A DNA stretch of 64,000 nucleotides from Symbiobacteriaceae bacterium (lineage in GTDB: Bacteria; Bacillota; Sulfobacillia; Symbiobacteriales; Symbiobacteriaceae), in NCBI GenBank assembly GCA_029239785.1, contig JARBUG010000001.1, forward strand, positions 1-64,000, read 5' to 3'. This document shows positions 23 to 60,524 of the stretch, piece by piece. Positions within the stretch are counted from its first letter, which is position 1. Each line of letters starts with the position of its first letter. The notes beneath the pieces were generated by a model that saw only the letters and a list, made by a program, of their open reading frames with translations, did not search any database and was not told the origin of the DNA. The translations under genes were made by a program, and so were the position numbers.

Positions 23-2984
<2,962 letters not shown>

Positions 2985-2999
2985 GCCTGTACACGCAAC

Positions 3000-3037
3000 G
3001 GACGCAGCGCACCCACCAGGGGCACTGCGTCCTTTTT
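3000..3037 (+). terminator. Rho-independent terminator after ligA
   Basis: The arms GGACGCAG and CTGCGTCC close a hairpin that is followed directly by TTTTT. It lies 16 bases past the ligA stop. Confidence 0.8.
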
Positions 3038-3066
3038 CATACGTCTGATGTGGGAGGAATGGCCGC

Positions 3067-3375
3067 GTGCAGTGCGACCAGATTCGGCAGTACCTGAAGC
3101 CGTATGCCGAGGGAACGTTGCCGGGATACAAGGCCGCCTGGGTGGTGCAGCACCTCGCAGGCTGTCAGGTGTGTGCCGCGTCCGTGGCCACGGAGCGTGC
3201 CCGTATGCAGGGAGCCGCGCCGCCGGTGGCGGCAGCTGTTGAAGCGCCCGGGCAGCCAGCCGGCACCGAATTTGCAGCGGTGCAACGGCCTGTTCCTGTC
3301 GGACTCAAGGTGGCGGCGGTCGCACTGATTGGTGCGGCCGTTGTGGGCGCGTTCTGGCTGCTGGTTACCACGTAA
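3067..3375 (+). CDS. Small anti-sigma-like membrane protein with zinc-finger motif
   Basis: The product has 102 residues. The N-terminal part shows the H-x3-C-x2-C pattern (HLAGCQVC) of zf-HC2/ZAS domains, which bind zinc and hold sigma factors in many anti-sigma proteins, plus an earlier Cys at residue 3. A Pro/Ala linker follows, then one C-terminal transmembrane helix (about residues 79-100), so the Cys/His domain should face the cytoplasm. GGGAGGA 8 bases upstream supports the GTG start. No sigma-factor gene lies next to it, which is unusual for a true anti-sigma factor, so that role is only a family-based suggestion. Confidence 0.7.
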   Translation: MQCDQIRQYLKPYAEGTLPGYKAAWVVQHLAGCQVCAASVATERARMQGAAPPVAAAVEAPGQPAGTEFAAVQRPVPVGLKVAAVALIGAAVVGAFWLLVTT

Positions 3376-3773
3376 ACTTTTGGACTCTTGGACGTTTGAC
3401 CACACGTGTGATAAACTTTTCAACCACGGGTTTCAATGCGTTGCGGAGAGCCCATCCACGTTTGTACGCATGGTGGTACGCCACCTAGCATATGTATCCT
3501 TCTGGCATATCAGATCGCGATAATTGATGAATCTGTGCTATGTTACAGAAGGAGAAGACGCGGTATCCGAAGAATCCTAGTCGTCTAGGGCAACATATTG
3601 CGTCGATTGTTAGGTCAGTCCTCCGAAAAAGACCGGCCTGACTATTTGACAAGACCGAACGGTTAGGCCCAAATGCGCGTCACATGAATGCACGGGTGCA
3701 AAGTAATCCCGCCCAGTATGCTATAGCCCGCCCCGGCAGGACGTCGATTACGAAGGAGACGAGGAGTGAGCCG
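3376..3773. other. 398-base gene-free stretch upstream of the oppD-like gene
   Basis: No supported gene lies here. It holds a short inverted repeat CCTAG-TCGT-CTAGG (3576-3589) and a TTGACA at 3646-3651 with no convincing -10 at the right distance. It is more AT-rich than the flanking genes and probably contains the promoter of the ATPase pair. An in-frame ATG at 3684 would extend the next gene, but a much better ribosome-binding site supports 3774. Confidence 0.5.
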
Positions 3774-4769: not shown

Positions 4770-5780
4770 ATGGCGACCGCTATGAAGCCTGAAACCAAGA
4801 AAGAGGTCCTTCTCGAGGTCAAGAACCTCAAGAAGTGGTTCCCGATCTCCGGTGGCGGCCTGATTTCCAAGACCATCGGCCACGTGAAGGCCGTTGACGG
4901 CGTGAGCTTTGACGTTCGCAAGGGCGAAACGCTCGGCCTCGTGGGCGAATCTGGCTGCGGCAAGACCACGGCCGGCAAGACCATTCTCCGCCTGATCGAA
5001 CCGACCGGCGGCGAAGCGATTTTCGAAGGCAAGAACATTTATTCCATGGGTCGTGAGGACCTCCGGAAGATGCGCCGCGAGATGCAGATCATCTTCCAGG
5101 ATCCGTACTCCTCGCTGAACCCCCGTATGACCGTTGGCGAGATCATCGGTGAGCCGCTGGAAATCCACGGCGTTGCCCGTGGCCAGGAGAAGCAGAAGCG
5201 CGTCGGTCAGTTGCTCGACGTCGTCGGTCTGGCTTCCTTCCACGCCCGCCGGTATCCGCACGAGTTCTCCGGCGGCCAGCGGCAGCGTATCGGCATCGCC
5301 CGTGCGCTGGCCCTCAACCCGAAGCTGATCGTTTGCGACGAGCCCGTCTCGGCGCTTGACGTGTCGATTCAGTCTCAGGTCATCAACCTGCTGGAGGACC
5401 TCCAGAAGGAGTTCAACCTGACCTATATCTTCATTGCCCACGGCCTGTCGGTCGTGAAGCACGTGTCGGATCGCGTCGGCGTTATGTACCTCGGCAAGAT
5501 GATGGAGATCTCTCCGTCTGCAGAGCTGTACGCGAACCCGCTGCATCCGTACACCGAGGCGCTCATGTCCGCCATTCCCATTCCCGATCCCACCATTCGC
5601 CGCGAGCGGATCGTGCTGGAAGGCGACGTGCCCTCGCCGGTCAATCCGCCGAGCGGCTGCCGCTTCCACACCCGGTGCCGCTATGCCTCCCAGCTCGGCG
5701 AGCGTTGCAAGACCGAGGAGCCCCCGCTGCTCGAGATCGCGCCCGACCACTGGGTCGCCTGCCACCTGCGGGTCAAGTAA
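4770..5780 (+). CDS. Opp/Dpp-type ABC transporter ATP-binding protein (OppF-like)
   Basis: The 336-residue second ATPase would form a heterodimer with the product of the preceding gene. Walker A (GESGCGKTT), signature ([15 protein letters not shown]), Walker B ([12 protein letters not shown]) and the C-terminal RFHTRC motif are all present. The Walker B flanking H is seen in IFIAHGLS, where most relatives have THDL. The stop is followed by a strong terminator, so the transcription unit contains only the two ATPases. They probably serve permeases encoded elsewhere on the chromosome. Confidence 0.92.
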
Positions 5781-5795
5781 GTTGCATAGTAGGAA

Positions 5796-5830
5796 CCCCC
5801 GCACACCCATTGGGTTTGTGCGGGGGTTTT
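5796..5830 (+). terminator. Terminator after the orphan Opp ATPase pair
   Basis: CCCCCGCACA pairs with TGTGCGGGGG around a short loop, followed by TTTT. Confidence 0.85.
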
Positions 5831-5865
5831 GCGTTTCCACCGGGTATGACCCTGCGGGTCTTCCA

Positions 5866-5992
5866 TATTTTGGCCGCAGATGACGCAGATTGCGCAGATA
5901 CCCGGTAGGTCGTTCCGGGTCATTATTTATGGATGTGACCGGGAGTGTTGTGCGAGGTATCTGCGGCATCTGCGTCATCTGCGGCAAAAAAT
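5866..5992. repeat. Long inverted-repeat element with GCAGAT-periodic arms (copy 1)
   Basis: The left arm (5873-5902) and right arm (5956-5985) are inverted repeats that match at nearly every position. Each arm is built from about 9-base units ending in GCAGAT or its complement. The pairing extends outward through ATTTT / AAAAT. The loop (about 5903-5955) contains TCATTATTTATGGATG. A related element with a similar loop lies at 58745-58986. It is non-coding; short reading frames through it give Cys/Ile-rich nonsense. Both terminator and mobile hairpin repeat are possible roles. Confidence 0.8.
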
Positions 5993-6000
5993 GTGTCTCT

Positions 6001-6318
6001 CTAGATTTCCCGGATGATGCAGAGGCAATGGCCGTACTGGTTGGACCCTACTGCGACGTGCTGCTGGCCGTCCGGGCGGGCAGCGACGGCTGCCTGGTTA
6101 GCGACTTCCTCCAGGCTGGTGTGGCCGGTCGAGAAGAAGACCTGCCCCGTGTATCGGTGTGACCCGCCGGGCTCGTGTAGCAGGACCAGACAGTGGCCGT
6201 GTTCGTTGGAATCCATGCTGATATCGAGAATTTCCGATTCCGACTGCTGGAGCCAGGCCTGGAGTTCATCCTGCAGGTCCAGATGGCTTCTGGAGAAAAA
6301 CACCTTCACGGCGGACAT
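6001..6318 (-). CDS. Small protein with duplicated Cse60-like domain
   Basis: The product has 105 residues. GGAGGT 7 bases upstream supports the ATG at 6318. The two halves align with each other: VFFSRSHLDLQDEL ... SNEHGHCLVLLHE against VFFSTGHTSLEEVA ... SNQYGHCLCIIRE. So the gene looks like an internal duplication of a domain of about 45 residues. The pattern V-x-V-F ... H ... DLQ-x-E ... ILDI resembles the small Bacillus sporulation protein Cse60, judged from memory rather than a search. No signal peptide or membrane segment is seen. It is transcribed away from gatC. Function unknown. Confidence 0.75.
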   Translation of the reverse strand: MSAVKVFFSRSHLDLQDELQAWLQQSESEILDISMDSNEHGHCLVLLHEPGGSHRYTGQVFFSTGHTSLEEVANQAAVAARPDGQQHVAVGSNQYGHCLCIIREI

Positions 6319-6389
6319 GGAATAACACCTCCGCATATTGGACCAGACAAAACCCTGGAAAGGTTCGGACTTATACCTGTCATGTCACG

Positions 6390-56939: not shown

Positions 56940-58724
56940 ATGCATAACGTCAACACCCTGCACAACATCCTGCAGACCACCCGGGGATTTGCACCATTCC
57001 CGACCATCGCTGACCGGGCAGCCTGGGCGTCCAGGACGAGCCACCCTGTGGCCCGCACCATTCTCGAAGTCGCCGACAGCCAGGCCGACCTGCCCATTCC
57101 GGCGCTTCCGGCGACCCTGTCGCTGGACTTCGACCGGAGCGGCAAGCAGCTGCCTTTTGAGGCCCAATACTTCGCCCGGCGCACCCGCCTGAACGCGCTT
57201 GTGCTGGCCGAGTGCCTGCTGAACGAGGGCCGCTACCTGCAGCCCATCATCGACCTCGTCAAAGCGCTCTGCGACGAGACGACCTGGTCCATGGGCCCGC
57301 GCATCCGCCCGGACGGCCCCACCGAGCTGGACATTTACGCTGCCGGCACCGGCCTCTTCCTGGCCGAAACTGACTACCTGCTCGGCGACCTGCTCCCCGC
57401 CGACCTGCGGGCCTGCATCCGCACGGCGTGCCACGACCGGCTGGTTCACCCCTACCTGGGCACAACTGCGTTCCCGGCGGAAAACCCGGTCTCCAGCGTG
57501 GGCATTGTGGCGGCTGCGCTTTACCTGGAATCCGACCTCACCATTCAGGCCCGGGTGCTCAGCAAGGCGTTGGGCAAGCTGCCTGCCTATCTTGATGATT
57601 TCAGCGCCGAGAAGTCCAAGTACGGCGGCGCGTCGTTCTGGTCGATCTTCCACTACGCGGTCCTGGGCCACCTGGTGGAGGCCCGCACGGCCGGGCAGAT
57701 CAACATGTTCGACCATCCGAACATGAAGGAGATCTGCCGCTTCCTCACCTGCCTCGAACTGAGCCCCGGCGAGTTCGTCAACTTCAGCGACGGCGCCCGC
57801 GCCTACATCAAAGCGGCGGGCATCTGTTGCTGGCTGGGCCGCCGCGTGGGCGTGCCGGAACTGGTCGAACTGGGCCGGCGCAACCTGCCGCTCATCTCGC
57901 CCGAAAACATTCACAGCGACTCCTACCAGCGCGGCCGCTTCCGCCCGGAGTTTATCTTCCGGACGCTGCTCTGGGCCGATACGCAGGAGGCCGCCCCGGC
58001 CAAGCCGCCGGCAACGGTCTTCCACCCGGGCTTCCAGTTCCTCATCAGCCGCCACGACCCCACCGACCCCATGGGCCTGGTGCTGGCGGCCAAGGGCGGC
58101 CACAACGGCGAAGATCAGAACCATAACGATGTAGGCCAGTTCATCATTCACTACGCCGGTGAGTCGTTCGTGGTCGATCCGGGCGCCCGGACCTACGCCC
58201 GCGACTTCTCCCTGGAAGACCGGTACGAGCAGCTGGAGTGCCGTTCCCGGGGCCACTGCGTGCCGGTGGTTAACGGGCGGGAGCAGGCGCCCGGCGCCGA
58301 GTACGGCGCCAAGCTGGTCGGCCAGGAACTGAGCGCATCGGGCGACCGCATTGAGCTCGAACTGGCGGGCGCCTACAGCTCGCATGCCGGCATCGAGTCG
58401 ATCCACCGCCGGGTCAGCCTGATTCGCATTGAGCCGAAGGGCCAGATCATCGTGCGTGACGACTTCCACTTTGAAGATCCGCCCAACCTGTACGAGAGCC
58501 GGGTGTATACCTTTGCGGCGGTCGAGCAGGTCTCGCCGGGCTACCTGCGGCTGAAGGGGAAGCACGGCGTGCTGGCGATTCGGTACGACACGCATGCGGC
58601 GGTGCTGCGCATGGAGGAGCTGGCCCCGGGCGAGACGACGCCCTGGAGCGGCACCCTCTACCGCCTGCGCTTCGTGCAGCTGGCGCATAAGGACAGCATG
58701 ATCCTGCGGTTCGTGCCTGAGTAA
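56940..58724 (+). CDS. Heparinase II/III-family-like protein
   Basis: The 594-residue protein has an N-terminal alpha/alpha-barrel (about 1-370) and a C-terminal beta-sandwich with the Heparinase_II/III motif GHNGEDQNHNDVGQFIIHY, which includes metal and active-site His/Asn candidates. No signal peptide is seen, so it would act inside the cell, which is unusual for this lyase family but matches the cytoplasmic glycosidases nearby. AGGAGG lies 13 bases before ATG 56940, slightly far; no better start is in frame. It is divergent from the tandem-MBL gene. Uronic-acid-containing oligosaccharides are the likely substrates. Confidence 0.82.
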   Translation: MHNVNTLHNILQTTRGFAPFPTIADRAAWASRTSHPVARTILEVADSQADLPIPALPATLSLDFDRSGKQLPFEAQYFARRTRLNALVLAECLLNEGRYLQPIIDLVKALCDETTWSMGPRIRPDGPTELDIYAAGTGLFLAETDYLLGDLLPADLRACIRTACHDRLVHPYLGTTAFPAENPVSSVGIVAAALYLESDLTIQARVLSKALGKLPAYLDDFSAEKSKYGGASFWSIFHYAVLGHLVEARTAGQINMFDHPNMKEICRFLTCLELSPGEFVNFSDGARAYIKAAGICCWLGRRVGVPELVELGRRNLPLISPENIHSDSYQRGRFRPEFIFRTLLWADTQEAAPAKPPATVFHPGFQFLISRHDPTDPMGLVLAAKGGHNGEDQNHNDVGQFIIHYAGESFVVDPGARTYARDFSLEDRYEQLECRSRGHCVPVVNGREQAPGAEYGAKLVGQELSASGDRIELELAGAYSSHAGIESIHRRVSLIRIEPKGQIIVRDDFHFEDPPNLYESRVYTFAAVEQVSPGYLRLKGKHGVLAIRYDTHAAVLRMEELAPGETTPWSGTLYRLRFVQLAHKDSMILRFVPE

Positions 58725-58744
58725 GAGAGATTTGGGGCAGTTTC

Positions 58745-58986
58745 ATGGCCACGGATTTCACGGGTCTCGGGTCAGACGCGGATTTGGAACACAAATACAT
58801 GAATGACCACAGATGACACAGATATCACTGATACCAGGTAGACCGTTCCGAGTCATCATTTAATGAATGACCTGGACGGTTTTGCCGGGTATCTGTGTCC
58901 TCTGTGAACTCTGTGGTCATAAATGTGTCTGCCTAAAATCCGCGTTCTGTTCCCAAACCCGCGTAATCCGTGAAATCCGTGGCCAT
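58745..58986. repeat. Nested inverted-repeat element (copy 2)
   Basis: Outer arms ATGGCCACGGATTTCACGG and CCGTGAAATCCGTGGCCAT match perfectly, a middle layer repeats CGCGGATTT / AAATCCGCG, and an inner layer has ACCACAGATGACACAGAT / CTGTGAACTCTGTGGT. The loop has TCATCATTTAATGAATGACC, clearly related to the loop of the element at 5866-5992. Non-coding. Confidence 0.8.
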
Positions 58987-58999
58987 ATCAATGCCCGAC

Positions 59000-59827
59000 T
59001 CAATACAACTGCCCCGGCGGCGCCGGCTGGCAGGTCGGGCAGAAGTTCGTCTCCAGATACCCCAGGCTGCGCAGCACAATGCGGCTCCCGCACCGTGGGC
59101 AGGGCGTGTTCTCCCGCCCCCTGACCTGCATGTGCGACCGCACCTTGGCGCCCAGCCCCGGCGGCATCCCCTCGGCGACCGCCTTGACCCCCAGCGCCAT
59201 CACGGTGCGTACGGCGGCGGCCAGCGCCGCCCACTCCGCATCGGCAAGCGACGACAGCTTCCGCTTCGGATGCAGCCTTGCCTCAAAGAGAATCTCATCG
59301 GCATACGCGTTCCCGATGCCGGCCAGGAACTCCTGGTCCATCAGCAGGTTCCGCACCTCGTACTGCCGCTTCCGCCCCCGGCGGATGAAATCTGCCTCAT
59401 CAAAGGAGGATGGGTCGGCCTCGGGACCCAGCCCCGCGAAGCCCGGCACCGCCGCCGCCGGCTCCTCACCCCGCAGGAGGTAGACCTTGCCCATCTGCTT
59501 CTCATCGCGGTAGCGCAGTTGAATGCCGCCCTCGAAGGTGATGGCGAAGGCTGTATCCTTCGTGCGCTTCGCCCCGGGCTGCGTCAGGGCAAAGACCCCC
59601 GTCAGCATGGGATTGACCACCATGAGCGAGGCGTCATCCCAGTGGAAGGTAAGGAACTTGCCCCGCTGCGTCAGCCCGGCCAGCCGGCGCCCGGCTATCC
59701 ACTGCGGCAGGGGCAGCACCGCCCGCAGCACGATGGGGTTGTACACCTCGGCGCCCACGGCGGCCTGGCCGGTCAGGGCCTGGTCAAGCCGCTCCCGCAG
59801 GACGAACAGGTCGGGCCATTCTGGCAT
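59000..59827 (-). CDS. Formamidopyrimidine-DNA glycosylase family protein (Fpg/Nei-like)
   Basis: The 275-residue enzyme removes oxidised bases and nicks the abasic site. The mature N-terminus PEWPDL provides the catalytic Pro2 and Glu3, with the usual L-P-E-V replaced by W-P-D. The H2TH segment GIGNAYADEILFEA is clear, and a C-terminal zinc finger (CPRCG ... CPTC) follows. ATG 59827 has GAGGAGTGAG upstream; the longer frame has no site. It is a variant subfamily of Fpg/Nei, so its lesion preference may differ from MutM. It is divergent from a TerC-like gene. Confidence 0.9.
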   Translation of the reverse strand: MPEWPDLFVLRERLDQALTGQAAVGAEVYNPIVLRAVLPLPQWIAGRRLAGLTQRGKFLTFHWDDASLMVVNPMLTGVFALTQPGAKRTKDTAFAITFEGGIQLRYRDEKQMGKVYLLRGEEPAAAVPGFAGLGPEADPSSFDEADFIRRGRKRQYEVRNLLMDQEFLAGIGNAYADEILFEARLHPKRKLSSLADAEWAALAAAVRTVMALGVKAVAEGMPPGLGAKVRSHMQVRGRENTPCPRCGSRIVLRSLGYLETNFCPTCQPAPPGQLY

Positions 59828-59879
59828 AGCGCTCACTCCTCGTAACATAGCTTGACCACGAACCGCATACCCCTTTTCC

Positions 59880-60524
59880 ATGATAGATTTCATGAGCGGA
59901 CTCCTCAAGCTGATCCTGATTGATTTGGTGCTCTCGGGCGATAACGCCCTGGTCATTGGCATGGCCTGCGCCGCCCTGCCGCCCCGGGAGCGGAAGCTGG
60001 GTGTTCTCTACGGCTCTCTGGCCGCGGTCGCCATGCGGGTGATGCTCGCCGCCGGCACCTCGGTGCTGCTTCGCATTCCCTTGCTCCAGGCCTTTGGCGG
60101 CCTGCTCCTGCTCTGGGTCGCCTACAAACTCACGGCCTCCACCGCCGGGGCCCACGGCGCCGTGCAGAGCAGCGCCACGGTCTGGCAGGCGGTCAAAACC
60201 ATCGCCGTCGCCGATCTGGTCATGTCGCTGGACAACGTGCTGGCCGTAGGCGGCGTGTCGCACGGGAACATTACGCTGCTGCTGATTGGCCTGGGCCTTA
60301 CCATCCCGCTGATCATGTGGGGCAGCGGCCTGGTCGCGGCCCTGCTGGACCGGGCGCCCTGGCTCACCTACGTCGGCTCCGCCGTCCTCTGCCTGACCGC
60401 CGCCGAAATGATCGGCGCCGACCCGGCCGTCCCGGTGAAGCAGTCCCCCTGGCTGGCAGCCGCCGCGATCGTGCTTGTCTTGGGCGCCGCCCTGTGGGAC
60501 CGGCGCCGCAACTGGGCAAACTAA
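59880..60524 (+). CDS. TerC/YjbE-family membrane protein (probable metal exporter)
   Basis: The 214-residue protein has seven predicted helices. The paired motifs LIDLVLSGDNALVIGMA and VADLVMSLDNVLAVGG carry the acidic S-G/L-D-N residues of the TerC/YjbE family, which are implicated in Mn2+ export. The start lacks a clear ribosome site; ATG 59880 or 59892 are options. The gap to the divergent glycosylase gene is only about 50 bases, too short for a yybP-ykoY riboswitch. Confidence 0.85.
   Translation: MIDFMSGLLKLILIDLVLSGDNALVIGMACAALPPRERKLGVLYGSLAAVAMRVMLAAGTSVLLRIPLLQAFGGLLLLWVAYKLTASTAGAHGAVQSSATVWQAVKTIAVADLVMSLDNVLAVGGVSHGNITLLLIGLGLTIPLIMWGSGLVAALLDRAPWLTYVGSAVLCLTAAEMIGADPAVPVKQSPWLAAAAIVLVLGAALWDRRRNWAN

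Follow-up and report, generated by a model that had tools for sequence, protein, structure and literature searches.

Related systems

REPINs are extragenic hairpins of about 100 bp with two inverted conserved ends and a variable loop, and they are non-autonomous; their partner gene, RAYT, is present in low copy number and flanked by REPIN ends, and ends and enzyme appear to co-evolve (PMC3116915). The repeats described here share with that system the inverted conserved ends, variable loop and hairpin shape, an apparently non-autonomous state, an extragenic position, tandem clusters, an end-flanked partner gene, and repeat ends and a partner enzyme that appear to co-evolve (PMC3116915). Unlike REPIN/RAYT, in which the partner is a Y1 tyrosine transposase, the partner here is a PD-(D/E)XK nuclease. 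Unlike REP sequences, the arms are tandem 9-bp units of the form CRCRGAKNN, with neither a GTAG end nor an internal palindrome by inspection. The system resembles REPIN/RAYT in its working but falls outside that family by its defining features.

Other systems overlap with it in part. MITEs are likewise short and gene-free, with terminal inverted repeats, and are presumably mobilised in trans; unlike them, the present elements have no detected target-site duplication (TSD) and no transposase parent, their gene-bearing relative encoding a GxxExxY nuclease. Intervening sequences of rRNA encode the S23 four-helix-bundle protein, and hairpin arms surround this small ORF in a transcribed region; the arrangement is similar here, although protein and target differ. 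The GTAG and CGTC palindromic repeat super-families are also dispersed extragenic palindromes, and the CGTC group also has no dedicated transposase, but these are single palindromes of 20–40 bp with tetranucleotide tags and no 9-bp units (PMC3733652). Free-standing homing endonuclease genes (PMC3943268) are likewise small nuclease genes with essentially no further cargo, which some close relatives have at a fixed site and others lack. Inverted 9-bp arms, many gene-free copies and an intergenic site beside stop codons set the present elements apart.

Structure of the hairpin and its surroundings

The window (the whole 64,000-nucleotide stretch analysed) contains a complete, gene-free hairpin element of 127 bp at 5866–5992, with no strand assigned, identified by fold z score, arm pairing and genome-wide homologues. 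The original prediction had described a palindrome with near-perfect 30-base arms composed of units of about 9 bases ending in GCAGAT, and this description is borne out. The left arm (5873–5902, + strand) and the right arm (5956–5985, − strand), which is the left arm inverted, agree at 28/30 positions (GCCGCAGATGACGCAGATNNCGCAGATACC), and the arm unit is 9 bp long, CGCAGATNN. The left arm comprises three units, GCCGCAGAT, GACGCAGAT and TGCGCAGAT, followed by ACC. The palindrome is lengthened by A/T tracts (5868–5871 and 5986–5991) and a weaker inner stem; in this extended form its arms are 55 nt long and 78% complementary. The core (5903–5955) consists of CGGTAggtCGTTCCGGGTCA, an AT-rich apex and a part beginning TGACCGGGA, contains the weak inner stem, and is common to copies in the genome, as judged from core patterns and alignment with 58801–58925. 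As DNA, 5840–6020 folds at −52.2 kcal/mol, compared with −23.1 ± 2.9 for shuffled sequences (z = −10.2), and 0/200 shuffles fold as well.

Upstream lies the gene for an oligopeptide ABC transporter ATPase (OppF-like; 4770–5780, + strand; Pfam ABC_tran and oligo_HPY), followed 3′ by an intrinsic-terminator-like hairpin (5796–5830, + strand) that has a comparable counterpart in element-free relatives. Downstream, a small convergent ORF (6001–6336, − strand) has its stop codon about 10 bp from the element, and a similar stretch occupies the same place in relatives G003 and G004. A known RNA family was ruled out as the identity of the hairpin, since Rfam 15 at gathering score gives no match in the 64-kb window. 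Elsewhere in the window, the gap at 2984–3684 contains two overlapping, mutually antisense candidate ORFs, 3037–3423 (− strand, 128 aa) and 3067–3375 (+ strand, 102 aa).

A related element with a shared loop had been proposed 53 kb away, at 58745–58986. It is indeed present, spanning 58735–58996 (no strand assigned; fold z = −11.7), and is nested: outer CACGGAT-type arms (58735–58763 and 58968–58996) enclose an inner CACAGAT-type hairpin (58792–58931). The loop motif TCATYATTTA occurs in the 64 kb at 5920 and 58853 and nowhere else, and the alignment of the two elements runs through both core and arms. The nested element occupies the whole gap between a gene ending at 58724 and a convergent Fpg/MutM-like gene (59000–59962, − strand).

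The repeat family in the genome

Used as a blastn query, the 127-bp element gives 79 matches in the 5.5-Mb genome (G000), and a search for CRCRGAKNNCRCRGAK, the 16-bp motif of paired units, yields 399 occurrences, compared with 3 for a reversed-pattern control. The window's two elements are not a pair of chance matches, the outcome that the original prediction had set against its own reading; gene-free dispersed copies number well over a hundred, and dispersal is directly observed. Copy counts are probably underestimates, since the repeats seem to interrupt the MAG assemblies. Several contigs end in or beside elements in G000 (C20, C24, C32 and C80) and in G002, a genome of the same family (C373).

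In about 709 kb of stretches selected around known copies, 52 elements were identified. They follow one plan, in which an AT-rich end (roughly GGGRCANTTATTTNGC) is followed by some three 9-bp units and a core, and then by the inverse. Three unit types occur (CGCAGAT, CACAGAG/CACAGAT and CRCGGAT), with at least two core types, and copies are also nested and tandem. The two arms of one element resemble each other (mean score 37.3) more than they resemble the arms of other elements (26.9; 0/5000 permutations), so that arm-to-arm matching is directly visible. Such matching might arise with no enzyme at all, palindromes being maintained and spread by quasipalindrome correction (template switching) and unit slippage. 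These processes account for joint change of left and right arms and for likeness among tandem units without selection, and they may add to arm upkeep. As a full explanation they are very improbable: they do not account for how elements come to insert at new sites, for the link to PF13366 or for the arm–nuclease matching described below.

Placement is strongly non-random. On the calls of a home-made gene caller, 0/52 elements lie within genes; among the 48 that could be placed, only 1 lies in a divergent spacer, a class that accounts for 24% of intergenic bases (p = 2e-5), 16 lie in convergent spacers (p = 0.002), and most have a stop codon within about 80 bp. Placement after stop codons is in this sense an observation. 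A search of 45 elements for TSDs found no duplicate above permuted pairs; these are old copies, in which decay could mask one. A MITE that makes TSDs was ruled out, as none was detected.

Empty sites and distribution among bacteria

In G003 and G004, oppF, the terminator-like hairpin and the convergent ORF are directly adjacent and the element is absent; it is likewise absent from this site in G001 and G002. At the rpoZ–coaBC site, G002 carries an element and three relatives are empty. Insertion polymorphism is directly observed at both places, as the proposed check for empty sites in relatives had anticipated. Recent copies in G002 share 84–96% identity and are bounded by the same AT-rich ends. 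The paired-unit motif is abundant in G000 and G002 and at background level in G001, G003, G004 and the rest of the class, and a longer arm pattern occurs in 2/398 genomes of the window's phylum. The suggestion of a dispersed, perhaps mobile, hairpin is upheld by the many genomic copies, the empty sites and this lineage-restricted amplification.

An alternative is that the hairpins are host functional elements, such as 3′-end RNA stabilisers or transcription punctuation under selection, and that GxxExxY acts on their RNA form. The proximity of stop codons (about 80 bp or less), the avoidance of divergent promoters and preserved arm complementarity all agree with such a role. It is nevertheless rather improbable: relatives have empty sites with intact neighbouring genes, nearly the whole phylum does without the repeat, the stem has a T run 5′ and an A run 3′, unlike the layout of an intrinsic terminator, and nested and tandem copies resemble proliferation.

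Repeats with CRCAGAT-type units had been described as common among unrelated bacteria, and they are. Exact matches to the arm pattern GCCGCAGATGACGCAGATNNCGCAGAT are present in 53 MAG stretches from several phyla, with carriers in Acidobacteriota, Bacteroidota, Verrucomicrobia, Desulfuromonadales, Caulobacteraceae and Chloroflexi. The loops between these arms are unrelated, and arms sometimes form tandem arrays. In Acidobacteriota MAGs (L129, L135 and L140), the arms are repeated in tandem every 37 bp or so and do not form hairpins.

The GxxExxY nuclease as partner gene

A nearby REP-type transposase had been expected. None was found: PF01797 (Y1/RAYT) has no match in the genome, which is 91% complete, and positive controls were recovered. 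A REP/REPIN family driven by a RAYT would have the same shape (inverted doublet hairpin, extragenic position, tandem clusters, repeat-flanked enzyme gene; compare PMC3116915). Given the missing enzyme and arms with neither a small palindrome of their own nor a GTAG end, it can hardly be the explanation, the least probable of those considered.

The sole recurrent protein between or beside arms is GxxExxY (PF13366/TIGR04256), of the PD-(D/E)XK nuclease family. Across about 110 arm loci, no other recurrent protein is convincing, the clusters being ABC transporters, regulators and shadow ORFs. PF13366 is present in all three element-bearing genomes (G000, G002 and G217) and in none of the three element-free ones (G001, G003 and G004). 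G000 has three intact loci and one fragmentary locus; among its copies on C34, C57 and C247, some are flanked by arms of 9-bp units. Both features of the proposed element class, inverted 9-bp-unit arms and a GxxExxY gene, are found in this one genome. Directly 3′ of a GxxExxY gene, L043 9515–9943 comprises three near-identical tandem copies of about 210 bp with CCGCGGATTATGGGATTATCGGAT units.

The association extends beyond this lineage. In genomes of other groups picked by arm sequence alone, PF13366 occurs in 14/15, compared with 31/398 in the window's phylum (p = 6e-14, an optimistic value, with related genomes among the 15 and a comparison rate from the window's phylum and not theirs); one arm-bearing genome has no PF13366. 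In the 14.2 kb of sequence lying no more than 300 bp from PF13366 genes, strict unit pairs number 33, compared with 0 for the reversed control, and they thin out with distance. In two sets, 14/24 and 10/18 PF13366 loci have an arm within 400 bp; the remaining 40% or so have no motif-detected arm at that distance, and other 9-bp units occur in some of them. Inverted arms are seen to bracket GxxExxY across phyla, with a unit that varies by lineage (CACAGAGGA, CACGAAGGA, CGCAAAGGA, CGCGGAGAA and CGCAGATGA). The gene upstream of GxxExxY is co-directional at 32 of 40 scored loci.

Carriage of the nuclease by phages, plasmids or viruses was considered and rejected: single-protein or small-alignment queries found it in 0/50,697 phages, 8/72,556 plasmid records and 1 viral contig, which points to neither plasmids nor phages as its evident vehicle. 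Where plasmid or viral records were inspected (Gemmatirosa; Sphingomonas, where it lies between fabD and fabG; Bernardetia; Bacteroides; and one IMG/VR contig), the gene is arm-bracketed in 5/5.

The invariant residues of GxxExxY (E28, D68, E78 and K80) form a PD-(D/E)XK pattern. T7 endonuclease I, a junction-resolving enzyme, is the single match in a PDB profile search, and a non-significant one (E = 1.5), in which its acidic residues and E-x-K motif align onto D68/E78/K80. A structure model from a single sequence has a pLDDT of 40; one from three sequences reaches 70 (moderate confidence) and consists of two helices, a beta sheet and a helix. Foldseek found nothing significant with the three-sequence model.

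The radA site in Bacteroides

Between radA and the next gene, at least 9 of 60 Bacteroides-group genomes carry a nuclease-plus-arms unit; in several others the spacer is just 3–80 bp. Flanks of an empty genome (G502) and two inserted ones (G468 and G517) are 97–98% identical, and a tree requires at least five state changes on well-supported branches. This is presence/absence polymorphism at one site, as in homing endonucleases. An apparent arm remnant at the site in G505 indicates that some losses probably occur. The inserted allele starts no more than a few nucleotides from the radA stop codon and leaves 0 to about 20 nt ahead of the following start codon; it takes the place of the native spacer instead of splitting it (L293–L312), which simple insertion does not explain.

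The left and right arms at this site vary jointly, unit length included (p = 1e-4). Arm similarity tracks the identity of the nuclease gene (r = 0.64; partial p = 0.001) and not that of flanking genes (r = −0.02), a direct view of arm-to-nuclease matching. Judged from these sequence comparisons, arms and nuclease act as one unit, and arm sequence follows nuclease sequence rather than species. Many dispersed arm matches occur in 9/9 genomes with the gene at radA and in 6/51 others (p = 3e-7, from a query that includes the arms themselves and a statistic that ignores relatedness); some Bacteroides genomes have dispersed arms and no nuclease gene at radA.

Some other enzyme might move the hairpins, be it a transposase, an integrase or a reverse transcriptase that escaped notice, with GxxExxY as cargo or a hitchhiker using the same ends. 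Cutting by the nuclease is itself inferred, TSDs are absent, spacer replacement at radA suggests a recombination route, and a second enzyme could be missed in a genome 91% complete. The idea is unlikely, if less so than the alternatives above: the arm loci yielded no other convincingly recurrent family, Y1_Tnp gave zero matches, and arms and nuclease covary independently of flanking genes.

Proposed mode of spread

The hairpin at 5866–5992 is probably a non-autonomous member of a mobile repeat family, in a system that resembles REPINs but has a nuclease where those have RAYT. The presumed full version would be a GxxExxY gene bracketed by inverted arms of 9-bp units. Its arms would fold into a cruciform or single-stranded hairpin, and the nuclease would recognise in trans the arms that match it and cut there; repair or recombination would then copy the hairpin, alone or together with the gene, to intergenic spacers beside stop codons. 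That the nuclease moves the repeat, cuts the arms and starts copying by cutting, and the copying route itself, are what we infer. Against this reading stand the lack of a TSD, the PF13366 loci without a motif-detected arm, the arm-bearing genome without PF13366, the Bacteroides genomes with dispersed arms and an empty radA site, the replaced spacer, and a structure model of moderate confidence with no significant fold match.

A broader proposal, put forward tentatively and with slightly less confidence than doubt, is a mobile element of a new class, about 480 bp long with a single gene, whose sole protein is a GxxExxY-family PD-(D/E)XK nuclease. The nuclease would recognise the hairpin or cruciform of its own 9-bp-periodic arms and carry the element, along with swarms of gene-free hairpins, into stop-codon spacers. 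Hairpin repeats with 9-base periodicity occur in many bacterial phyla, their origin unexplained in the literature searched, and GxxExxY, though annotated in many genomes, has no known role. That literature (non-subscription papers) contains no link between GxxExxY and repeats and mentions the protein just in passing; the unit sequences, PF13366 and TIGR04256 receive passing mentions at most. The pairing offers both partners testable jobs, the nuclease as a concrete candidate for the spreading enzyme of a widespread repeat class and the repeats as its substrates. If true, a single-gene nuclease element would explain much of the CACAGAG-, CACGAAG-, CGCAAAG- and CRCGGAT-type repeats in unrelated bacteria, a REPIN-like partnership would exist with an enzyme from a superfamily other than that of the REP transposase, and a source of intergenic insertion polymorphism in Bacteroides and other bacteria would be at hand.

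Variation of ends and cores

Several further features vary among elements. About a dozen of them (e.g. window 5850–5862, L050 1034–1074, L036, L049 and L057) have an alternative end, CCCCTGCGGGTCTT, where GGGRCA is usual, and end types can differ between the left and right ends of a single element. Arms of the types already named also enclose a different core (GGTCTTCCAGTCTGGCTGCTGGG...CCCAGCAACC), which looks as though cores could be swapped between arms (L032 11785–12104, L052 1269–1441, L055 5413–5757 and L063 77–594). Immediately outside several CGCAGAT-type elements lies the repeated sequence CCAACCTGGTTTGTGAGTCGTGC (L043 8100–8160, L063 15640–15697, L058 and L066).
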